From an uncultured Bacilli bacterium (GTDB taxonomy: Bacteria; Bacillota_I; Bacilli_A; RF39; UBA660): a stretch of 64,000 nt of DNA. The translations under genes were made by a program, and so were the position numbers. The DNA lies in contig CALWAL010000005.1 of the NCBI GenBank assembly GCA_944373145.1, positions 62,001 to 126,000 of the forward strand. The letters run 5' to 3'. Numbering within the stretch: position 1 is the stretch's first letter; each line of letters opens with the position of its first letter. Positions 1-10,399 of the stretch are shown piece after piece. Under the pieces are notes generated by a model. It did not search any database, was not told the origin of the DNA, and saw nothing but the letters and a program-made list of their open reading frames with translations.

Positions 1-1332
1 ATTATTGATGGTGTTTTTCTTAAATTGAGCAATGATGGAATTCAAGAAAAAATCAAGTATAGTGGGCTAAAAAATGATAAATATAATAAAAAAGTTTTAG
101 ATGCCTATTTATTTTTTTACAATAGATTAATGCAAGATTTAGAGAATTTATCGTCTACTAATAAAATGAAAAAATTATTGGAATTAAAAAATAAAATTTT
201 AAGTGTAAATGTTGTAGAAATAATTGCACCATATGATGATAATGCAACAGTAGGTTATAGAATATTTGAAGTGTTAAATGCAAGGGGGATACCATTAGAA
301 CAACATGAATTGATTAAGAACTATATATTTAAATATAAGAAAAAAAAGAAAAATTCAAAAAATGATGGAGCTAAAAAGCAATGGGAAAATATAGTAAACA
401 ATTTAGTAAATGAATATAATGATAATATGAGTAACTTTTTTTCACATTATATAATTCATAAGTATGGTATTAAATCATCAAAAAAAGGGGAATTTGAAGC
501 AATAAAAGAAAATTGTCATAAAGGAGAAGTTGATGACCTATTATTAGATTTAGTAAAAAAATCGAATTATTACTCTGTTATTTGTGATCCATCTAAGAAT
601 TCCACTTTGCCATTTCTTAGTAAAACTGTAATTAATGCATTAATTTTTTTTAAAGATATGAATATTAGACAGATTAGACCAGTTCTTCTTTCTTTGTTTA
701 ATTGTGCTGATTCTGGGTTGATTAGTCAAACCGTATTAGACGATATTATAAAATATTTAGAATCATTTTATTTTATTTATGTTGTTCTTGCTAAAAATAA
801 AACTAATAATTTAGAAAATATAATATGTAATTATGCCCATAAATTGGAAAATGAATTTAATTCTAAAGTTTATGAAGAATTTTTGAATTCGTTATCTAAA
901 TATAAAATATCATATGACAGTTTTGAAAATTATTTTTGTGATATTGGGTATTCTAAAAAAAATGTCAAATTTAAAAATAGTTCAAATAAAAAAGTCGTTT
1001 TCTACGTTTTAAAAAAAATTGAGATATATTACAACACAGAAAATGACTATGATTTAAATAAATTTTCTATTGAACATATAAAATGTGATGATGAAGAGAA
1101 TGATGAAATAGCAAAAATTGGGAACTTATTACCATTGTCAGAAAATAGAAATAATAAAATTTCAAATGCTGATTTTGATACAAAGGTTGAGCAATATAAA
1201 AAATCTAATCTGTTAACTGTGAAAAGATTTTTAACAAATTATTCAACAAAAAAGGTTTGGGATGAATCAGATATAATTAATAGAACAAAAAAAATTGCAA
1301 AAATGTGTTATAAGAATGTTTGGCCTTTATAA
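1..1332 (+). CDS. GmrSD-like DUF262-DUF1524 restriction protein, 5' partial
   Basis: The reading frame is open to the left edge, so the N-terminus lies outside the window; the first visible TTG at 25 is not a convincing start. The visible part ends a DUF262 (ParB/Srx-like NTPase) domain with FEVLNARGIPLEQHELIKNY at about codons 90-109, and continues into a C-terminal DUF1524 (HNH-like) domain with IEHIKCDDEE and IGNLLPLSENRNNKISN. Such fusions belong to the GmrSD/BrxU group that cleaves modified DNA (established knowledge). The usual HxxP of DUF1524 reads H-I-K-C here, so the proline is missing and nuclease activity is uncertain. It lies 5' of a complete DpnII system, consistent with a defence island. 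Confidence 0.8.
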   Translation: MIDGVFLKLSNDGIQEKIKYSGLKNDKYNKKVLDAYLFFYNRLMQDLENLSSTNKMKKLLELKNKILSVNVVEIIAPYDDNATVGYRIFEVLNARGIPLEQHELIKNYIFKYKKKKKNSKNDGAKKQWENIVNNLVNEYNDNMSNFFSHYIIHKYGIKSSKKGEFEAIKENCHKGEVDDLLLDLVKKSNYYSVICDPSKNSTLPFLSKTVINALIFFKDMNIRQIRPVLLSLFNCADSGLISQTVLDDIIKYLESFYFIYVVLAKNKTNNLENIICNYAHKLENEFNSKVYEEFLNSLSKYKISYDSFENYFCDIGYSKKNVKFKNSSNKKVVFYVLKKIEIYYNTENDYDLNKFSIEHIKCDDEENDEIAKIGNLLPLSENRNNKISNADFDTKVEQYKKSNLLTVKRFLTNYSTKKVWDESDIINRTKKIAKMCYKNVWPL

Positions 1333-1374
1333 ATAAAAAAACGTATTTTAAATATACTATAAATGGTGAGATGA

Positions 1375-1572
1375 ATGTTCAAAGTTATAGTTATTTATAA
1401 AAAGAATAAATATGAGATTAAAGTATATGATTATGAGTTTAATAGATGGTGTGCATCACATAATGGAACATTGTTTAGAACTATTGAAGATGCCAAATTT
1501 ATGAAAAGCATATTAATAAAATTAAATAATAAAAATATAAAAGATGTTATTATAGAAGATATTAGGAGGTAG
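1375..1572 (+). CDS. small protein upstream of dpnM, unknown function
   Basis: Sixty-five codons with a GGTGAG ribosome site five bases before ATG. The stop codon is embedded in the AGGAGG site of dpnM, so the two genes are almost certainly co-transcribed. The product is basic and contains F-N-R-W-C near residue 24 followed by TIEDAKFMKSI. This resembles the F-D-D-W-C plus TSLNQLSQI layout of the small gene between dpnA and the nuclease, suggesting the two are distant relatives. The function is not known. Candidate roles are a controller or accessory protein for the restriction operon, but no helix-turn-helix is visible. Confidence 0.65.
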   Translation: MFKVIVIYKKNKYEIKVYDYEFNRWCASHNGTLFRTIEDAKFMKSILIKLNNKNIKDVIIEDIRR

Positions 1573-1576
1573 CAAA

Positions 1577-2428
1577 ATGATTAAAGGAAAACCATTTGTA
1601 AAATGGGCTGGTGGGAAAAGACAAATTATTGATAAATTAAAACAATATGTTCCTGATGAATTTAATACTTATTATGAACCATTTGTTGGTGGAGGTGCTT
1701 TGTTATTTGAATTATCTCCTAAAAATGCGGTTATTAATGATTATAATAGAGAACTTATGAATGTTTATGAATGTATTAAAGATGCTAAAAAGTTTGAATC
1801 TATGTGTAAAGAATTGAATCATCATGAAACTATGCATTCTGAGGAATATTATTATGAAATTAGAAATTTAGATAGGGATAAAAAGAAGTTTAATAAGTTA
1901 GCTGATTATAAAAGAGCTGCTAGAACAATTTATCTTAATAAGGCTTGCTTTAATGGATTATATAGAGTAAATAGTAAAAATGAATTTAATGTTCCATTTG
2001 GAAAGAAAAATAAAGTTAATACTTATGAAGGGCAAAATCTAGGAATTATATGTGGATTTTTAAATTACAACAATATTAGATTATTATCAGTTGATTTTGA
2101 AGAAGCTGTAAAAGACGCTAAAAAAGGGGACTTTGTATATTTTGATCCGCCATATGATTCTGATACAACTACCTTTAATAGTTATACTGAAGATGGCTTT
2201 GATAAAGAAGAACAAAAAAGACTTGCAAAAGTATTTAAGGATTTGGATAAAAGAGGATGTTATGTAATGTTATCTAATCATAATACAACTTTAGTTAATG
2301 AATTATATAAAGAATATAATATTCACATTATAGAGGCTAAAAGAAATATTAATGCTAATGGTAAAAAAAGAGAAAAAGTTGAAGAAGTTATAATAACAAA
2401 TTTTGAAAATAAAAGAGGATTTGAATAG
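1577..2428 (+). CDS. dpnM: DNA adenine methylase, DpnM/Dam type (GATC)
   Basis: A 283-residue class alpha N6-adenine methyltransferase that modifies GATC in duplex DNA and protects the host from its DpnII nuclease. Visible motifs are KWAGGKRQ at the N-terminus (SAM-site flank typical of Dam), PFVGGGALLF at about residues 35-44 (motif I) and YFDPPYDSD near 190 (catalytic DPPY). Length matches DpnM. A perfect AGGAGG precedes ATG at eight bases. It is the first methylase of a dpnM-dpnA-accessory-dpnII operon. Identification as GATC-specific follows from the family and from the clear DpnII nuclease downstream. Confidence 0.95.
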   Translation: MIKGKPFVKWAGGKRQIIDKLKQYVPDEFNTYYEPFVGGGALLFELSPKNAVINDYNRELMNVYECIKDAKKFESMCKELNHHETMHSEEYYYEIRNLDRDKKKFNKLADYKRAARTIYLNKACFNGLYRVNSKNEFNVPFGKKNKVNTYEGQNLGIICGFLNYNNIRLLSVDFEEAVKDAKKGDFVYFDPPYDSDTTTFNSYTEDGFDKEEQKRLAKVFKDLDKRGCYVMLSNHNTTLVNELYKEYNIHIIEAKRNINANGKKREKVEEVIITNFENKRGFE

Positions 2429-2463
2429 TAATTTTAGTATATTTAATATAAGGAGGTATTGAT

Positions 2464-3240
2464 ATGAATAGGTTAAAATATTATTATGAGAATCACAATT
2501 TTAAACTTATTCAAGGTGATTCATTAGCAATATTAAAAAAAATAGAGCCTAAAAGTGTTGATATGATTTTTGCTGATCCTCCTTATTTTTTGTCTGGTGA
2601 TGGTATTTCGTGCAGTGCAGGTAAAATGGTGAGCGTAAGAAAAGGGGCATGGGATGAAAAAATAGATATTAAAGAAAAGCATAGATTTAATAAAAAATGG
2701 ATTAGATTATGTAAAGAAATTTTAAAAGATGATGGGACTATTTGGATAAGCGGAACAATGCATAATATATATTCAATTGGTATGGCACTTGAAGAAGAAG
2801 GATTTAAAATAATTAATAATATTACTTGGAGAAAATTAAATCCTCCTCCAAATATTAGTTGTAGAGCTTTTGTTCATTCAACCGAAACAATATTATGGGC
2901 AAAGAAAGATATAAAGAAGGCTAAACATAAATTTAACTATGAATTAATGAGGAAAATGAATAACAATAAACAAATGAAAGATGTTTGGGAAACTTCTTTA
3001 ACTAAACCTAGTGAAAAAAAGTGTGGTAAACATCCTACTCAAAAACCTATTGCTTTATTAGAAAAAATTATTTTAGCATCGACTGATGAAGGTGATTTAA
3101 TTTTAGATCCGTTTAATGGTAGTGGTACTACTGGAATTGTTGCTAGTAGATTAAATAGAAAATATATTGGAATTGAAAAGAAAAAGGAATATTTAGAACT
3201 AACTATAAAGAGAAAGGAAGAAATTTGTGATAAAAGTTGA
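2464..3240 (+). CDS. dpnA: DNA adenine methylase, DpnA type (second GATC methylase)
   Basis: A 258-residue class beta adenine methyltransferase: FADPPYF (catalytic motif IV) at about residues 36-42 comes before the SAM motif DPFNGSGTTG near 216-225, with KHPTQKP just upstream. In Streptococcus pneumoniae, DpnA also methylates single-stranded DNA, and this protects incoming transforming plasmid DNA (established knowledge). The start is ATG after AAGGAGGT. The 3' end overlaps the next gene by 14 bases. Retention of both methylases suggests the organism, or the element's earlier host, took up DNA as single strands; that is inference. Confidence 0.92.
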   Translation: MNRLKYYYENHNFKLIQGDSLAILKKIEPKSVDMIFADPPYFLSGDGISCSAGKMVSVRKGAWDEKIDIKEKHRFNKKWIRLCKEILKDDGTIWISGTMHNIYSIGMALEEEGFKIINNITWRKLNPPPNISCRAFVHSTETILWAKKDIKKAKHKFNYELMRKMNNNKQMKDVWETSLTKPSEKKCGKHPTQKPIALLEKIILASTDEGDLILDPFNGSGTTGIVASRLNRKYIGIEKKKEYLELTIKRKEEICDKS

Positions 3241-3706
3241 TTTGAAAAATAATAAATATTTAACATTTTCTCGTGGTAAATTTGATGATTGGTGTGTATA
3301 TGAAGTAGATGAAAATGGAATTAAAAAAGCACCGTTAGATATAGAATATTTTACTTCTTTAAATCAATTATCCCAAATATTTAATCCTAATATGCTTTAT
3401 GATGATTTTATAAAACTATATGATGAAACTACTTCTATATTTAAAGATGATGTGATTTTAGATATAGAAAAACTAGTAGAACATTATAATGAGTATGCTG
3501 ATGAGGTTTTTAGAATCTTTTGTATTTTATATATGGCAATGATAGCGGAGCAAAATAAAAAATATACAAAATTAGGGAAAAGAATAAAAAGATTAGGGAT
3601 GTATAATTTATTAATTAAAAGATTATCCCCTAGTTATTGTGCAAATTTTATGAGAAACATGGATTGGAAAACAATTGATAAACTATGTTTAGAAGGTGGT
3701 TTTTAA
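3227..3706 (+). CDS. accessory protein of the DpnII locus, unknown function
   Basis: A 159-residue protein starting at GTG (AAAGGAAG six bases upstream) inside the end of dpnA, and ending in TAATG, where its stop overlaps the nuclease start. Both overlaps imply translational coupling with the restriction genes. The N-terminal 60 residues contain F-D-D-W-C-V followed by an FTSLNQLSQIF segment. The C-terminal half is helical and basic (YTKLGKRIKRLGMYNLLIKR). No catalytic motif is recognised. I believe similar small proteins accompany other GATC restriction loci, but I cannot name the family with certainty. Confidence 0.8.
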   Translation: MIKVDLKNNKYLTFSRGKFDDWCVYEVDENGIKKAPLDIEYFTSLNQLSQIFNPNMLYDDFIKLYDETTSIFKDDVILDIEKLVEHYNEYADEVFRIFCILYMAMIAEQNKKYTKLGKRIKRLGMYNLLIKRLSPSYCANFMRNMDWKTIDKLCLEGGF

Positions 3707-4563
3707 TGAACAGAAATTTTAACGAATGGTTAAGTAAAATTAAAACCAGTATATCAGATTATACATATTACGTTGACTTTAAAAAAATATATAAAAATGT
3801 TGATAAAGTAAAAGTAGAACTTAATATTTTGAATTCATTAATAGGTAGTCAAAATATTGAAGAAGAATTTCAAAATATTTTGATTAAATATCCTGAAACT
3901 TTAGAATGTATTCCTCTTTTATTAGCTGTTCGTTCAAGAGAAATATTTGTTAAAGATGAAATAAATGAATATTTATTTAAGTTTGATAAAATGGTTTATT
4001 CTATAAATGATTATATTAAATTTATGCGAGAAAGCGGACTATTTGATTTATTACAAAATCATATTATAAATAATTTATATGATTATGTTTTAGGTGTTGA
4101 AGTAGGATTAGATTCAAATGGTAGAAAAAATCGTGGTGGTCATTTAATGGAAAACTTAGTTGAAGATTATATAAAAAAAGCGGGATACATAAAAGATAAA
4201 AATTATTATAAAGAAATGTATACAAAAGATATTAAAACAAAATGGAATATAGATTTAATGTCAATATCAGGAAAGCAACAAGCTAGTAAACGATGGGATT
4301 ATGTCATAAAAACTGATGAGCAACTTTATGTTATTGAAACAAATTTTTATGCTAGTCAAGGTTCTAAATTAAATGAAACTGCAAGAAGTTATGAATTGAT
4401 TGCTCAAAAGGTCAAACAAATAACCGGAGTAACATTTATTTGGATAACTGATGGCACAGGCTGGAATAATGCTAAAAATAATTTAGAGGAAACATTTAAT
4501 GAATTAGAAACATTGTATAATATTAGTGATTTAGAATCTGGCGTTTTAAATGATTTAACATAA
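3706..4563 (+). CDS. dpnB: Type II restriction endonuclease DpnII (GATC)
   Basis: A 285-residue nuclease that cuts unmethylated GATC. The sequence closely follows the DpnII family from end to end: NFNEWLSKIKTSISDYTYY at the N-terminus, NSLIGSQNIEEEF, FDLLQNHIINNLYDYVLGVE, VGLDSNGRKNRGG, then YVIETNFYASQGSKLNETAR and TFIWITDGTGW. The ExN/ExK-like strand around IETNFY carries the likely metal site. I take the start as ATG in the TAATG overlap, with AAGGTGG upstream. This gives 285 codons against 288 in the pneumococcal enzyme; the in-frame ATG seven codons earlier would lie inside the preceding gene. Confidence 0.95.
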   Translation: MNRNFNEWLSKIKTSISDYTYYVDFKKIYKNVDKVKVELNILNSLIGSQNIEEEFQNILIKYPETLECIPLLLAVRSREIFVKDEINEYLFKFDKMVYSINDYIKFMRESGLFDLLQNHIINNLYDYVLGVEVGLDSNGRKNRGGHLMENLVEDYIKKAGYIKDKNYYKEMYTKDIKTKWNIDLMSISGKQQASKRWDYVIKTDEQLYVIETNFYASQGSKLNETARSYELIAQKVKQITGVTFIWITDGTGWNNAKNNLEETFNELETLYNISDLESGVLNDLT

Positions 4564-4569
4564 AATCCC

Positions 4570-4600
4570 AAAAAACCTATATTTTTGTAGGTATTTTTTA
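4570..4600 (+). terminator. rho-independent terminator after the DpnII operon
   Basis: A short stem, ACCTA/TAGGT, around an A/T loop, followed by ATTTTTTAT, seven bases after the nuclease stop codon. Confidence 0.6.
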
Positions 4601-4610
4601 TCAGGATAAG

Positions 4611-4712
4611 ATGATGGTACCATCATACTTATTTTGGCCTTATTTTATGCCAAAAGTCGCGGTACCAAACTTATTTTGCACTTGCAAAATATATCCCAAA
4701 ATCAATAAAAAT
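4611..4712. repeat. run of four palindromes in the spacer before the recombinase
   Basis: Four dyads follow each other: ATGATGGTACCATCAT (4611-4626, perfect 16-mer), TTTTGGC/GCCAAAA (about 4632-4654), ATTTTGCA-CT-TGCAAAAT (about 4671-4690), and AATCAATA/TATTGATT (about 4692-4713). The 9-mer ACTTATTTT occurs twice between them and GGTACC recurs. No coding frame runs through. This may be a recombination or transfer site, a structured RNA, or a REP-like unit. Confidence 0.6.
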
Positions 4713-4745
4713 ATTGATTTTATCCTTTAAATATAAGTTATTACT

Positions 4746-4786
4746 ATATCCCACTTCTTAAAAAAGATTATTTAAAATTGGGATAT
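4746..4786. repeat. inverted repeat ATATCCCA/TGGGATAT
   Basis: Eight-base perfect arms are separated by about 25 A/T-rich bases. They lie in the same gene-free stretch (4564-5034), which otherwise holds only A/T-rich sequence and further TATCC copies near 4828 and 4841. Confidence 0.45.
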
Positions 4787-5034
4787 CTATTATTTTGATA
4801 AAAAATTAATTAACACTTAATTATGTATCCAAAAAAGTATCCGAAAATTATCCTTGTTATAAATCTAGTTACAATATAAAATGTAGTAAAGTGGAATTAA
4901 TAGTATAATTTCATTTTTTATTAGTAGTGATTTTATGTTGTTTATAATTGGAAAATATAAAGGTTTGGTGTTATTAAGAAAGGCTTATATAGTCTTTTTT
5001 ATTTTGTATTATCATAAATTTAATAGTGATTAAT

Positions 5035-5214
5035 ATGAATAAATATAAGATAAATATTATATATAATGATTCTGGTCCAAATATAAATGACATATTAATT
5101 AAAACTTTAAAAATAGAAATATCAAAAAATCTTAAAAACATGATTTTGCTTCAGGGTAAAAATGTACTGCTGTTGAATAGTACTTATTTATCTCGTGAAA
5201 GTGATGTTAAATGA
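5035..5214 (+). CDS. small ORF preceding the serine recombinase
   Basis: Fifty-nine codons from ATG (an in-frame GTG lies three codons earlier), ending in ATGA, where its stop overlaps the recombinase start. Small ORFs immediately 5' of large serine recombinases are common in Tn4451/phage-type elements. The product has no recognised domain. The ribosome site is weak (AATAGTGATT), but the four-base overlap favours a real coupled gene. Function unknown. Confidence 0.5.
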   Translation: MNKYKINIIYNDSGPNINDILIKTLKIEISKNLKNMILLQGKNVLLLNSTYLSRESDVK

Positions 5215-6779
5215 ATAAAGAGATAAATATACTTTCTAATGTTGGATTATATATTAGATTATCACGTGAAGATGATGATAAAGTATCAGAAAGTCAAAGT
5301 ATTATAAATCAAAAAAGTTTATTAATACAGTATGTGAAAGAAAATGATTTAAGACTTGTTGATATTTATATTGACGATGGATATAGTGGTACTAATTTTG
5401 ATAGACCAGAATTTAAGAGAATGATAGATGATATCTTAAAAGGCAAAATTAATATGGTTATTACCAAAGATATGTCCCGTTTAGGACGAGATTATATTGG
5501 TACAGGAGAATTAATTGAAAAGTTTTTTCCAACTCATGGAGTTAGATATATAGCAGTTACTGATAATATTGATACTTATTTAGATACTTCCAATAATGAT
5601 ATTGCTCCTTTTAAAGCAATAATGAATGATATGTATGCAAAAGATATTTCTAAGAAAATTAAATCAAGTTTAATGGCAAAACAAAAAGAAGGCAAATGGG
5701 TAGGAGGAAGAACTCCATTTGGTTATATACAAGATCCTAATAATAAAAATAAATTAATAATATTTGAAGAACAGGCAGTTGTTGTTAGAAGAATATTTGA
5801 TATGTGTTTAGAGGGGTTAACATGCTATAAAATAGCTTTAAGATTAACAAACGAGAAAGTAAAGACACCAGCTGAATATTATAGTTTTGAATGGAAAAAT
5901 AATTATCATCTTAATTATGGATTATGGCATGCTAAGACAATTAGAGATATTTTAACTAATAGAATGTATATTGGCGATTTAGTCCAAAATAAAAGAAATA
6001 AAGTTAATTATAAAGTAAAAAAGATTATTAAAAACAATCCTGAAAATTATATTGTTGTAGAAAACACTCATGAGGCTATTATTAAAAAAGAAATATTTTA
6101 TGAAGTTCAAAAAAGAATTCCTAAAAATGTGGGAAGAAACGAAAAAAAAGAAACACATTTATTAGATGGTTTATTATATTGTGGAGATTGTGGTCATAGG
6201 ATATCTGTTACATCAAGAAGAAAAAAAGATAATAGATGTTATACAATATGTAATTATTATCGAACACATATGAAATATCATGCATGTACAACTCATTCCA
6301 ATAATTATGATATATTAGAAAATATTATTTTAAATACATTAAAAGAATTATGTTTAAATTATATTGATAAAAGAAAAATTAAAGAAGAAATATTAGAAAA
6401 TATAAATAATGATAATAAACAAAGCATAAAGAAAGAGATATCGGTACTTGAAAATGAAATCAATAACATTAATAGTAATTTAGATAACATCTATCTTGAT
6501 AAATTAAATAAAATAATTGCTGAAGAACAATTTAATAGAGTTAAAATTAAGTTAGAAAATGAATTAAAGATTAAACAAGATAGATATATAGAATTAGTTA
6601 GTAATATTAATGAACAAACTAATAATGAAATGAACCATAAAAAAATAGAGAAGTTTATTGATGAGTTTTTATCCATAGAAAAACCTAATAGAGAATTAAT
6701 CATTAATTTAGTTGATAGAATAGAAATATTTGAAGATAAAAATATAAATATAAAAGTTACTTTTAATAATTTATTTTAG
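5211..6779 (+). CDS. large serine recombinase (site-specific integrase)
   Basis: A 522-residue recombinase of the resolvase/invertase superfamily. The catalytic domain holds YIRLSRED (nucleophile Ser near residue 18), SESQSIINQ, DDGYSGTNFDRPEF and DMSRLGRDYIG. A Recombinase domain follows, then a zinc ribbon (CGDCGH near 323, then CNYY and a further Cys), a long coiled coil (about 395-470), and a C-terminal tail. Enzymes of this size insert and excise mobile elements at short att sites without homology. The neighbours (restriction genes, NERD protein, gene remnant) fit a small integrated defence-carrying element. It looks intact. Confidence 0.93.
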   Translation: MNKEINILSNVGLYIRLSREDDDKVSESQSIINQKSLLIQYVKENDLRLVDIYIDDGYSGTNFDRPEFKRMIDDILKGKINMVITKDMSRLGRDYIGTGELIEKFFPTHGVRYIAVTDNIDTYLDTSNNDIAPFKAIMNDMYAKDISKKIKSSLMAKQKEGKWVGGRTPFGYIQDPNNKNKLIIFEEQAVVVRRIFDMCLEGLTCYKIALRLTNEKVKTPAEYYSFEWKNNYHLNYGLWHAKTIRDILTNRMYIGDLVQNKRNKVNYKVKKIIKNNPENYIVVENTHEAIIKKEIFYEVQKRIPKNVGRNEKKETHLLDGLLYCGDCGHRISVTSRRKKDNRCYTICNYYRTHMKYHACTTHSNNYDILENIILNTLKELCLNYIDKRKIKEEILENINNDNKQSIKKEISVLENEINNINSNLDNIYLDKLNKIIAEEQFNRVKIKLENELKIKQDRYIELVSNINEQTNNEMNHKKIEKFIDEFLSIEKPNRELIINLVDRIEIFEDKNINIKVTFNNLF

Positions 6780-6811
6780 GGTTGTGATATAATTATTATG
6801 GATGTGATTTT

Positions 6812-7585
6812 ATGGAAATAATTAAAAGTATTATAAATACATATTTAAATAATCCAAATCTATTGTTGCAAACGATTATTTTGATAATATTATGTGTTTT
6901 ATTGAAAATATATTATCCAAAATTTAGAGGATTTATGGGTGAATTTTGGGTAAAATTGGAACTTCGTAAATTACCTAAAGATAAGTATATCATTTTTAAT
7001 GATATAATGATAGAAGATGAAAAAGGTACTCATCAAATTGATCATTTAGTTTTATCAAAGTTTGGCATTTTTGTAATTGAAATGAAAAATTATTATGGTT
7101 TAATAAAGGGAAAAGAATTCGATAATAAATGGTGTCAATATTTAGGAAAACATAAAAGTTATTTTTTAAACCCTATTCATCAAAATTATGGACATATAAA
7201 ATCTTTATCAAATTTATTTAAATTAGAAGACAAATGTTTTATTTCAGTTATATGTTTTTCTAACCAAGCAAAAGTTGATGTTAAGAGTAATAATATAGTT
7301 ACACAAGTTGACTATCTAAAAGACGAAATTTTAAAGTATAATGAGGTTCTTATTAATGATGATTTAAAAAAATTATCTAATATTGTTATATATAGTAATA
7401 TTGAGGATAAAAAATTAAGAAGTCAACACATAAAAAATATTCGCTTTAAAATTAATAATGATAAGAACTTAGAAGATAATATGATATGTCCAAAATGTGG
7501 TAACCAATTAATTGAACGAAACGGTAAATATGGAGAATTTATTGGATGTTCTAATTATCCTAAATGTAGATATATTAAAAAGTAG
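6812..7585 (+). CDS. NERD-domain protein with topoisomerase-type C4 zinc finger
   Basis: A 257-residue protein with an N-terminal membrane segment (about 13-33), a NERD nuclease-related domain (about 38-150: GEFWVKLELRKLP, IDHLVLSKFGIFVIEMKNYYG) and a C-terminal zinc finger CPKCGNQL...GCSNYPKC (about 222-253), as found at the end of topoisomerase I. NERD domains share the restriction-endonuclease fold, with the D-x(n)-E-x-K residues seen here as IDH and VIEMK. The architecture is common in Firmicutes, function unproven. It is transcribed with the recombinase (32-base gap) and probably belongs to the same element. Confidence 0.85.
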   Translation: MEIIKSIINTYLNNPNLLLQTIILIILCVLLKIYYPKFRGFMGEFWVKLELRKLPKDKYIIFNDIMIEDEKGTHQIDHLVLSKFGIFVIEMKNYYGLIKGKEFDNKWCQYLGKHKSYFLNPIHQNYGHIKSLSNLFKLEDKCFISVICFSNQAKVDVKSNNIVTQVDYLKDEILKYNEVLINDDLKKLSNIVIYSNIEDKKLRSQHIKNIRFKINNDKNLEDNMICPKCGNQLIERNGKYGEFIGCSNYPKCRYIKK

Positions 7586-7744
7586 TCTATCATAAATACG
7601 CAAGGACATGTATGCCCAATTCATACCCATATAATAAATAGACACATTTATAATCATACTTATACACCAAGATATACTTGTTCAGAAGAAAATCAAATAA
7701 TAAATAATGATTGTGGTAAATGTAGTGGCTTTATAAACAGATAA
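7586..7744 (+). pseudogene. 3' remnant of a Cys/His-rich gene at the probable element junction
   Basis: An open frame follows directly after the NERD stop codon, in the same frame, but it has no start codon and no ribosome site. It encodes about 52 residues with HVCPIHTHIINRHIYNHTY followed by a C-x(n)-C-G-K-C tail and ends in TAA right before a good terminator. The composition (His/Tyr/Asn-rich, HxH, Cys pairs) recalls small spore-coat CotD-like proteins, but this is tentative. Loss of its 5' part next to a serine recombinase suggests the host gene was interrupted by integration; the other half would lie left of the window. Confidence 0.5.
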
Positions 7745-7764
7745 AAACTTTTATCTGTTTTTTT
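7734..7764 (+). terminator. rho-independent terminator
   Basis: AACAGATAAAA pairs with TTTTATCTGTT and runs into TTTTTTTG, overlapping the stop codon of the gene remnant. Confidence 0.85.
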
Positions 7765-7787
7765 GTTAAAATTTTGATTATATATAC

Positions 7788-7845: not shown

Positions 7846-8229
7846 ATGGCAAAAGTGTTAACAATTAAAGAACCATGGGCTACTTTAATTATTGAAGGAT
7901 ATAAAAAATATGAATTTCGTAGTTGGAAAACTAATTATCGTGGCAAAATATTGATTCATGCAGGAATGTCATTGGAGAAAGAAAGTGCTAAAAAGTTTAA
8001 AGATTATAATTTAATTTACACTAAAGGAGCTATAATAGGAGAGGCAATATTAACTGATTGTATCTTAGTTACTGAAGATTTTGATAAGAGATTAAAAGAA
8101 ATTAATCCTTTAGTTTATGGAAACAGCGGACATGTGCAAAATTATGCTTGGAAATTAGAAAATATAAAAAAATATGACAGTCCAATATATATTAAGGGTA
8201 AATTAGGTTTGTGGAATTATGATAATTAA
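7846..8229 (+). CDS. ASCH-domain protein
   Basis: A 127-residue single-domain protein: LTIKEPWATLIIEGYKKYEFR, SWKTNYRGKILIHAG and the C-terminal YAWKLENIKKYDSPIYIKGKLGLW are the typical ASCH beta-barrel blocks. ASCH domains resemble PUA and bind RNA; some hydrolyse N4-acetylcytidine. Which activity applies cannot be told from sequence. It is a lone gene with its own promoter, palindromic operator candidate and shared terminator. Confidence 0.88.
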   Translation: MAKVLTIKEPWATLIIEGYKKYEFRSWKTNYRGKILIHAGMSLEKESAKKFKDYNLIYTKGAIIGEAILTDCILVTEDFDKRLKEINPLVYGNSGHVQNYAWKLENIKKYDSPIYIKGKLGLWNYDN

Positions 8230-8263: not shown

Positions 8264-8297
8264 AAAAAAGCAGATTCAATATCGAATCTGCTTTATT
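8264..8297. terminator. bidirectional terminator
   Basis: AAAAGCAGATTC pairs with GAATCTGCTTT, with A-rich and T-rich flanks on both sides. It serves the ASCH gene and, from the other strand, the VanY-like pair. Confidence 0.85.
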
Positions 8298-9318
8298 TAA
8301 TATTCATAGCATAGTACTCTTCAAAAGTAAGGTTATTTTCATATATATATGTAGCAATATCAACACCAACATAACGATAATGCCAAGGTTCATAAATATA
8401 TCCAGTGATATAAGTTTTATCTTTAGGATATCTTAATATAAAACCATATTTATGAGCATTTTCTTTAACCCAAGTAAACTCTTTGGTGTTTTCAAAAGCA
8501 CTAATGCTATAATTATTAGCTGTTGCCAAATCAAATGCTAAACCTGTTTGATGCTCTGATGAACCTGGTCGAGCTGAATATGTATCGGCATTTTCTTGCC
8601 CGTCCTCTTTTACATAATTAGTGTATAGTTGATTTTGTCGATTATAACTGCGATAAGGTGAGGCTACGTATAAATATAGTCCTTGTTCATACGCATCATT
8701 ATACATTTTAATAAAAGCATCGTATGTATCTTTTTGTAAACTTCCAGTACCATGTTTAGAACTAACAGTGACTAAGTCAGGAACATAATCACTTGTTAAG
8801 TGATAATATTTATTTACTAATATTAAATCACCCTTAGTAACATCAGTTAAAACTGAATCTTCATAGCTTTTTTTATCCATGTTTAAATTAACCATAGCTA
8901 TAGCTTCATTGACTGTTGATTCATATTTTTTTTGAAAAGCTAAGTAACGATTTAAATTTTCTTCAATAAAATTTTTATGATCAATAATATCTTTCATAAT
9001 ACTAGTATATTCATTATCTTCAATGTTGTTATTGACAATAATAATTGTATGTGGAATTGATATTTCATTATTGTTATAATAAGAAAGATATTTTTCTAAA
9101 TTATCATCAATATAATTTTCATAACTTTTAAATTTTGAAATAAGTTGTTCTTCTTCGCTTTCTTTTATTTCGGTACTATCATCAATGTTCACATTAATTT
9201 TTTTACTTTCTTTTTTATTATATATAACTATAAGAGTTACTATTCCAATAATAATTAGTAGGATAGCAATAAAAATTTTAAATATTTTCTTTTTCATTTT
9301 TCTTCTTTTTTTGTTCAT
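8293..9318 (-). CDS. VanY/DacB-type D-alanyl-D-alanine carboxypeptidase (M15B), copy 1
   Basis: A 341-residue membrane-anchored peptidase: basic N-terminus, one membrane segment (about 12-33), a lysine-rich/acidic linker, a helical region, then the M15B zinc peptidase domain. Zinc and catalytic residues are visible in SARPGSSEHQTGLAFDL (near residue 250) and PWHYRYVG (near 311). It trims terminal D-Ala from peptidoglycan stem peptides outside the cell. The start follows GGAGGTTAAATT. It is the second gene of a pair, three bases after copy 2, and clearly a tandem duplicate. Confidence 0.92.
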   Translation of the reverse strand: MNKKRRKMKKKIFKIFIAILLIIIGIVTLIVIYNKKESKKINVNIDDSTEIKESEEEQLISKFKSYENYIDDNLEKYLSYYNNNEISIPHTIIIVNNNIEDNEYTSIMKDIIDHKNFIEENLNRYLAFQKKYESTVNEAIAMVNLNMDKKSYEDSVLTDVTKGDLILVNKYYHLTSDYVPDLVTVSSKHGTGSLQKDTYDAFIKMYNDAYEQGLYLYVASPYRSYNRQNQLYTNYVKEDGQENADTYSARPGSSEHQTGLAFDLATANNYSISAFENTKEFTWVKENAHKYGFILRYPKDKTYITGYIYEPWHYRYVGVDIATYIYENNLTFEEYYAMNIK

Positions 9319-9321
9319 AAT

Positions 9322-10281
9322 TTAACCTCCTATAAAATATGCATAATATTCATCAAATGTGATATTATGTTCGTAGATATAAGTAGCAATTTCAACACCG
9401 ACATAGCGATAATGCCAAGATTCATATTTATAACCCGTTATATATTCTTTATCTTTAGGATACCTTAATATAAATCCATATTTGTATGAATTATTTATTA
9501 ACCAATCAAATTGTGGTGAGGTATCAAAATTTTCACGGGTATAATTAGAATCTATTAACACATCAACAACAAGACCGGTTTGGTGTTCTGAATGTCCAGG
9601 ACGTGCAGCATAACTATCTGCGTATTCGGAACCATAAGCTGCTTTATAATCGTTATATATTTCTTCTTGTTCATCATAAGGACGGTATGTTGAATACATT
9701 GCTATATTAAATCCTTCTTCTTTAGCTGCATTATACATTGAAATATAAGCATAATAAGCTTCTTCATCCATCTCATCAGCATCTGGATAAGCATACCAAT
9801 TACTTGTTTTGACTAAATTTGGTTGATAATCAGCAGGTAAACTGTTAAATTTATTAACTAATAGTGAACTACCTTTAGTGGTATCAGTTTCTTTAGAATC
9901 TTCATACCAATCTTTATCTGCTCCAACATTAATGATGGCTACAACTTCCGAAAAAGTTAAATCATCATGTTCTTTAGCATAATTTAGATAATCTTCTAAA
10001 TTTTTTTCTAAAAAATATTCTTGTTTATAAAATTTGATAATATTTTCATCCAAAGTTTTATCTTTTATTATTTGTGCTAAATAGTCTTTATCAAGATTGT
10101 CAATTAAAAAGCTAGTATCTTCTTCTGAATATCCGATTGATAACAATTTATATTCATCTGTTTTTTGATAATCTAGTTTTTCTTTCCACTTAAATATGCC
10201 AATTATGGCAACAATAATTACAACTAAAATTCCAACTGCTATAATAACATTACCTGTTTTTATGCGAATTTTTTTATTCAT
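9322..10281 (-). CDS. VanY/DacB-type D-alanyl-D-alanine carboxypeptidase (M15B), copy 2
   Basis: A 319-residue paralogue of the downstream gene with one N-terminal membrane segment and an M15B domain bearing ARPGHSEHQTGLVVDV (near 230) and SWHYRYVG (near 287). The start is the ATG after GGAGGATTGTATA; an in-frame ATG five codons earlier sits inside that ribosome site. Copies 1 and 2 differ most in the stalk and in the loop before the zinc motif (PDADEMDEEAYYAYISMYN here), which suggests different substrates or partners. Likely first gene of a two-gene operon. Confidence 0.92.
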   Translation of the reverse strand: MNKKIRIKTGNVIIAVGILVVIIVAIIGIFKWKEKLDYQKTDEYKLLSIGYSEEDTSFLIDNLDKDYLAQIIKDKTLDENIIKFYKQEYFLEKNLEDYLNYAKEHDDLTFSEVVAIINVGADKDWYEDSKETDTTKGSSLLVNKFNSLPADYQPNLVKTSNWYAYPDADEMDEEAYYAYISMYNAAKEEGFNIAMYSTYRPYDEQEEIYNDYKAAYGSEYADSYAARPGHSEHQTGLVVDVLIDSNYTRENFDTSPQFDWLINNSYKYGFILRYPKDKEYITGYKYESWHYRYVGVEIATYIYEHNITFDEYYAYFIGG

Positions 10282-10399
10282 TATACAATCCTCCAATTCT
10301 AGTGTTATTATACCACGAATTATATTAAATTAAAATAAAATAAAATGTATATTTTTATCAGTTTAAATGATATAATTTAAATAGAAGGAGTGTGTGTAT

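Follow-up and report, generated by a model that had tools for sequence, protein, structure and literature searches.

The window analysed here, the whole 64-kb stretch of DNA, corresponds to G000:C5:62001-126000, where G000 is the genome under study. Directly behind the stop codon of a NERD nuclease-related gene, and in frame with it, lies a frame of 52 codons (7586-7744) that is open from the very next codon and has no ATG, GTG or TTG ahead of its conserved part, in line with the sequence-only reading, which had described a startless gene remnant at this place. The peptide finds matches at E ≤ 1 in 41 of 57 genomes, its own included, and matches at E < 1e-25 in all 11 other genomes of the same genus. 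Alignments to the nine genomes of the genus that carry the whole gene begin at residue 7, the first six residues being element-derived: the first 20 bases of the frame are the end of an element, and host-gene DNA begins at the ACA trinucleotide that follows (Table 1). The weak resemblance to CotD noticed in that reading was found again at the same level, the 3' half alone scoring E = 0.012 and 16.5 bits against Pfam CotD (PF11122), below the gathering score of 22; the gene is therefore labelled CotD-like, not CotD. The terminator that had been assigned to the frame was recovered in part. A hairpin (-9.7 kcal/mol) with a U run behind it overlaps the stop codon, and none of 200 shuffled sequences was as stable, whereas a scan for consensus terminators found none at the end of the CotD-like gene, probably because the hairpin stem is A/T-rich.

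Table 1. Features of the island and of the interrupted gene, in window coordinates unless a contig position is given.
Feature	Position	Strand	Evidence or remark
Island portion inside the window	1..7605	+	island starts 531 bases before the window
GmrSD/HEC-06/Orf5-like gene, 3' part	1..1332	+	full 573-aa ORF begins at G000:C5:61611
Dam-type N6-adenine methyltransferase, DpnII-like system	1577..2428	+	PF02086 E=2.9e-61, TIGR00571
Second DNA methyltransferase (N6_N4_Mtase)	2464..3240	+	PF01555 E=1.4e-64
DUF7004 protein, between methyltransferase and restriction enzyme	3227..3706	+	PF22539 E=9.8e-54
DpnII restriction endonuclease	3685..4563	+	PF04556 E=1.5e-107
CATAAATTTAA box before the small gene/LSR operon	5013..5023	+	role putative
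Small gene, 59 codons, overlaps the LSR start	5035..5214	+	conserved across elements
Large serine recombinase (LSR), 522 aa, TnpX/TndX type	5211..6779	+	Resolvase, Recombinase, Zn_ribbon_recom
NERD nuclease-related protein, C-terminal zinc ribbon (cargo)	6812..7585	+	PF08378 E=1.5e-28, PF01396 E=1.8e-15
Element side of attR	7586..7605	+	TCTATCATAAAT pairs with attL-side ATTTATGATAGA, inverted repeat
Shared core ACA	7606..7608	+	putative central dinucleotide CA; second copy G000:C5:61470-61472
3' half of the split CotD-like gene	7606..7744	+	homologues, rejoined frame
Terminator-like hairpin with U run at the end of the CotD-like gene	7735..7765	+	folding versus shuffles

A search with full-length relatives located the 5' half of the CotD-like gene at G000:C5:61351-61469, just outside the window and separated from the 3' half by 8.1 kb, with an island between them. 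Both junctions have the ACA in common, and the island together with one of the two ACA copies spans 8136 bases (G000:C5:61470-69605). Removing these bases in silico yields an 86-aa ORF that is in frame and resembles the intact relatives. When the arms of the island are joined the other way, the deduced attP reads TCTATCATAAAT ... ATTTATGATAGA flanking a CA core, with an inverted-repeat symmetry that was equalled in 38 of 5000 shuffles. Integration into a coding gene, as the earlier reading had proposed, is thus upheld by the 5' half upstream, the in-frame rejoined ORF and an uninterrupted site in the same genus (see below), and the further things it had pointed to, namely longer homologues of the peptide and a short repeat common to both ends, are present as full-length genes in relatives and as the ACA core. 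Judged from these comparisons of sequence, the 52-codon frame represents the 3' portion of a CotD-like gene cut by the 8.1-kb island, which is inserted precisely in that gene and whose precise removal would restore it. A chance origin of the frame, or an orphan peptide without relatives, might be argued from the Pfam score below cut-off but is barely conceivable: the cotD-like gene has homologues in 318 of 386 same-family genomes (E ≤ 1e-4), and both halves of it are present in one genome. We rejected this candidate on the homologues, the upstream 5' half and the in-frame rejoining.

In the same genus, the gene is whole in 9 of 12 genomes and split in G000, G006 and G010, the last being called split from its 3' side alone. 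The outcomes named as speaking against the earlier reading, namely no longer homologue anywhere, or a missing 5' half at a locus alike in all relatives, were not encountered. At one of the intact loci (L059), the CotD-like gene is uninterrupted and the flanking genes follow in the order found in G000 once the island is left out: MBOAT, DHHW (identified by Pfam), intact cotD-like, ASCH, VanY, VanY and band-7. An assembly chimera as the sole cause of the junction was rejected, given that junctions of this kind recur in 55 of the 386 genomes and that a same-genus genome has the site uninterrupted. As for the neighbouring genes themselves, two adjacent VanY-type carboxypeptidase genes lie downstream of the split gene (window 8293-10296, minus strand), and VanY-like genes also lie downstream of the intact gene in several same-genus genomes. 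An ASCH-domain gene stands just outside the island (window 7846-8229), as it does at L059, and a weak ASCH domain was also seen in a cargo protein (L152:6520-7434) whose cluster has four members inside elements.

The cargo of the island begins with a GmrSD/HEC-06/Orf5-like ORF, recognised by Pfam GmrSD_N (E = 3.5e-33) and GmrSD_C (E = 1e-12) and by PADLOC HEC-06 (E = 1.4e-69). The genes behind it form a DpnII restriction-modification system, the DpnII nuclease being accompanied by both a Dam-type and a second methyltransferase. Among 156 proteins from the elements, recombinases and small genes included, the named clusters comprise a Fic-type cluster (13), MazE-like (9), MazF-like (8) and NERD (6) proteins and a 527-aa type (5, one of them a fragment), with domains assigned by scanning one member per named cluster; the one member scanned of the 527-aa type gave no domain above cut-off.

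The recombinase has the Resolvase, Recombinase and zinc ribbon domains and the length, about 500 aa, of a large serine recombinase (LSR). TnpX and TndX, the recombinases of the transposons Tn4451 and Tn5397, are its nearest type (E = 6.1e-25 against TnpX chain 2mhc; 33.5% identity to TndX over 98%), though with a different target, and its identity to the plasmid and phage matches listed is at most 34.9%. The small gene precedes 32 of the 35 recombinase genes examined, a few of its copies being short or divergent; of the three misses, two are truncated where the contig stops, and in the third the small gene can be made out by eye. Its product has no match in Pfam or NCBIfam, its best match in PHROGs reaches E 0.0051 (one member), and its AlphaFold model is of low confidence (pLDDT 67). 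From the position of the gene, our guess is that the small protein is a candidate recombination directionality factor. Ahead of the operon, CATAANTTTAA was found in 26 of 32 element operons checked, and its likeness to a sigma-E box is a matter of conjecture. In many elements, including L149 and L153, inspection by eye showed two features ahead of the small gene: a palindrome, TTTAGTATTACTAAA, some 45-60 bases upstream of its start, and an TTATCCATAA...TTATGGATAA inverted repeat spanning its start codon; neither was seen before the small gene of G000. An operator and a start-codon hairpin are possible roles for the two.

The same kind of insertion recurs across the family. We found attR joined to a cotD-like 3' half in at least 55 of the 386 same-family genomes, from 45 genera. 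This number derives from a pattern built on the element side of attR, which matches 68 of the 386 genomes, all of which were inspected: in 51 the match is itself joined to a cotD-like 3' half; G155 and G216 have their pattern match elsewhere but were counted for another junction; the 15 genomes with no 3' half at the match were excluded; and G146 and G220 were added through short cotD-like frames. It is a lower bound, the further short or double cotD-like matches listed having been read in part, and the split same-genus genomes G006 and G010 lie outside the 386 sampled. Both ends were found for 17 elements of 3.1-9.0 kb; all 17 carry a recombinase and all 17 rejoin to a full-length frame (16 of 16, followed by G216). 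The 8986-base element of G084 is a tandem of two elements that enclose a natural attP matching the deduced form, and a tandem is also apparent in G288, where an attP precedes a second recombinase and an attR joined to the 3' half. The split gene was found in every sampled genome of two genera, g73 (4/4) and g77 (3/3), and two g73 genomes are split at two loci. Between G000 and G090, which belongs to another genus, DNA identity is 96.5% for NERD and 90.6% for the LSR, against 75.9% for the cotD-like 3' halves, which indicates that the islands move between genera.

Some genomes hold more than one split or partial locus. In G379 (L152, L153) and G219 (L150), two different cotD-like loci per genome are both split by elements. 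The two 3' halves of G219 lie 14.8 kb apart and point outward, and no recombinase was found on the plus-strand side; an inversion between elements may have produced this arrangement. G021 and G155 each have a second 3' half, with no recombinase in the sequence piece examined.

With the island in place, a stop codon follows the 5' half within five codons in all 17 elements; of the 41 split 3' halves, nine are preceded somewhere by an in-frame ATG and 32 are not. As the 5' half of G000 is soon stopped and its 3' half is startless, no full-length coat protein can be made while the island is integrated. Nevertheless, the 3' halves look preserved: none of the 41 contains a stop in 39 codons (a decayed relic in G021 lies outside this set), and the pN/pS of the split genes is 0.14 (0.10-0.18), from 39 of the 41 sequences, compared with 0.105 (0.08-0.14) for 49 intact sequences, both from nearest-neighbour counts, two split sequences having been dropped at the divergence limit. 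Raw pairwise dN/dS (0.297 split, 0.163 intact) was discarded as a measure, since synonymous changes (dS) are almost saturated and the lineages in the split set are more divergent. Within g73, any two of the 3' halves of G086, G312 and G379 show 4 differences in 108 bases, and every one of these is silent. The low pN/pS and the silent changes fit a gene that would be used after excision, and the purifying selection could also predate recent insertions. The relic in G021 (contig C94, L201) is an extra 3' half behind a MazEF-like pair and an attR; it has lost its stop codon, several of its residues are changed, and its neighbour, where the contig ends, is a partial copy in good state. Useless remnants, then, do occur.

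That the target may be a sporulation gene, as suggested at the outset from the CotD likeness, is supported by that weak match, by a promoter-like box and by Spo0A. The box, CATANNNTA, lies at a fixed place, within -45 to -14, in all 67 distinct cotD-like upstream regions (reduced from 99 named regions by removing duplicates and short ones, with start codons picked by ribosome-site score); it was found in 6 of 122 control ORFs of the own contig, and in a mean of 4.3 of 67 when the 90 upstream bases were shuffled. CATANNNTA resembles the -10 form of mother-cell sigma-K (and near sigma-E) promoters. It is absent at any fixed place before the small gene/LSR operons. Spo0A_C was found in G000, and it is present in 52/55 genomes with the split gene and in 302/331 of the others, so that a split gene is not coupled to absence of Spo0A. 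A search for SpoIIID gave nothing in the G000 assembly but found it in 5 of the 12 genomes of the genus, and SpoIVA in G000 scored below cut-off; sporulation of this strain is consequently not certain. Bacilli of the order RF39 are predicted by Field et al. to be able to sporulate (PMC10868615).

We propose that the island probably is a coat-gene-splitting LSR island that is excised in the sporulating mother cell, a reading that draws on the analogy with known elements. The LSR would have recombined an attP, its inverted-repeat arms set about a CA core, with a conserved attB located in the CotD-like gene, both sites being deduced from the junctions and the part of the LSR being putative. Precise excision across the ACA core would restore the gene in frame, as it does in silico. 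Removal would most likely take place in the sporulating mother cell, through the LSR and with the small protein as directionality factor; this terminal cell would then make the coat protein, and the forespore chromosome would retain the island with its defence cargo. In the assemblies, the attP pattern occurs in 2 of the 386 genomes, namely G084, where a tandem is shown, and G288, where it is apparent, and no exact match to attP was found in viral contigs. That no excision product was found, and that the LSR operon has no CATANNNTA at a fixed place, counts against programmed excision, and so do the SpoIIID and SpoIVA results for G000, the CotD score below cut-off, the possibly older purifying selection, the decayed remnant of G021, the in-frame ATG ahead of nine 3' halves and the low-confidence model of the small protein.

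The same facts bear on two other readings. LSR islands often insert in conserved genes, and the coat gene may simply have served as a conserved attB, a dispensable gene being inactivated by passive insertion with no programmed excision. Occupancy may then be recent, given the movement between genera seen with G000 and G090; excised forms are missing beyond the attP of one shown and one apparent tandem, and the extra 3' half of G021 has decayed. However, passive insertion sits poorly with the in-frame rejoining of 17 elements out of 17, with 41 of 41 3' halves free of stops (the G021 relic aside), with a low pN/pS, and with two genera, g73 and g77, in which all sampled genomes are split, two of them at two loci. 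We consider it unlikely, though a serious candidate. Alternatively, the island might switch stochastically or with growth phase in vegetative cells, giving populations with mixed coat-protein states that are not tied to the mother cell. For the element yin in yabG, excised and integrated forms are reported to depend on growth phase (PMC10747680), and an LSR operon devoid of a box like that of the coat gene would suit such switching; the fact that no free attP was found outside tandem-like arrays in the assemblies searched speaks against it, weakly, as the consensus of a MAG hides minorities. This possibility appears quite improbable to us. Excision tied to the mother cell, the reading we prefer, has a broader form to which we lean slightly: a family of small islands, some of them carrying defence genes, housed in one spore-coat gene across a family of uncultured Bacilli would be kept in the germ line, i.e. 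the vegetative cell and the spore, and spliced from the mother cell whenever the coat is made.

The anatomy has counterparts among the intervening elements of sporulation genes. As with skin, vfbin, gin and yin, removal restores the frame and the element has its own recombinase. In kind, gin comes closest: this non-phage island lies in the gerE gene of Bacillus cereus ATCC10987 (PMC5595907). It resembles the present islands in its serine recombinase, its insertion in a short sporulation gene (as ours is presumed to be), its restriction-modification system, a short core common to both ends and an inverted-repeat attP. It differs in its 31 genes, three recombinases, gerE target and need for GirC plus GirX (PMC5595907), whereas the islands described here have one LSR in most cases, 3.1-9.0 kb, a CotD-like target and uncultured Bacilli as hosts, with excision being presumed. 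The skin(Cd) element of Clostridioides difficile is likewise an LSR element in a sporulation gene, sigK, which is restored by excision, and it encodes the directionality factor CD1234 under the control of sigma-E and SpoIIID; unlike our islands, it is prophage-like and splits a sigma-factor gene (PMC5025042), and in ours the small gene sits in the LSR operon, its directionality role being a guess. The element yin, in the yabG gene of Clostridium botulinum, shows both gene restoration and a circular form, but is prophage-like and reported from one isolate alone (PMC10747680), in contrast to a family of small islands in many genera for which no circle was found. By anatomy, the island would be of the gin/skin/yin kind, the timing of its excision being presumed by analogy.

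Among the literature matches listed, in a search with subscription papers and preprints outside its coverage, there was no CotD-like intervening element and none in uncultured Bacilli. To our knowledge, gene splicing specific to sporulation is not known outside cultured relatives of Bacillus and Clostridium, and most of the elements involved are phage-like. As far as our searches show, novelty lies in the target and the uncultured hosts, in the small size, in the number of genera and in the swapping of cargo. If mother-cell excision holds, roughly one sampled genome in seven of this family would undergo programmed rearrangement, with an exchange of islands between genera and, at times, two coat-gene loci of the same genome split. 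At least 55 of 386 sampled genomes from one family of uncultured Bacilli share the same gene as a hotspot for non-phage islands. Given the frames, the junctions and the naturally occurring attP copies, the mechanism is open to direct test; the system bears on whether small-genome Bacilli still sporulate and yields a set of LSRs with mapped attachment sites.

Related recombinases with Resolvase, Recombinase and Zn ribbon domains, accompanied by the same kind of small gene, were also seen on two IMG/VR contigs (L207, L208). The attR-like arm in L208, AGCAAAAAGGGGCAAGGACAAGAAGC, continues into sequence that contains no cotD-like half, which suggests another target site.
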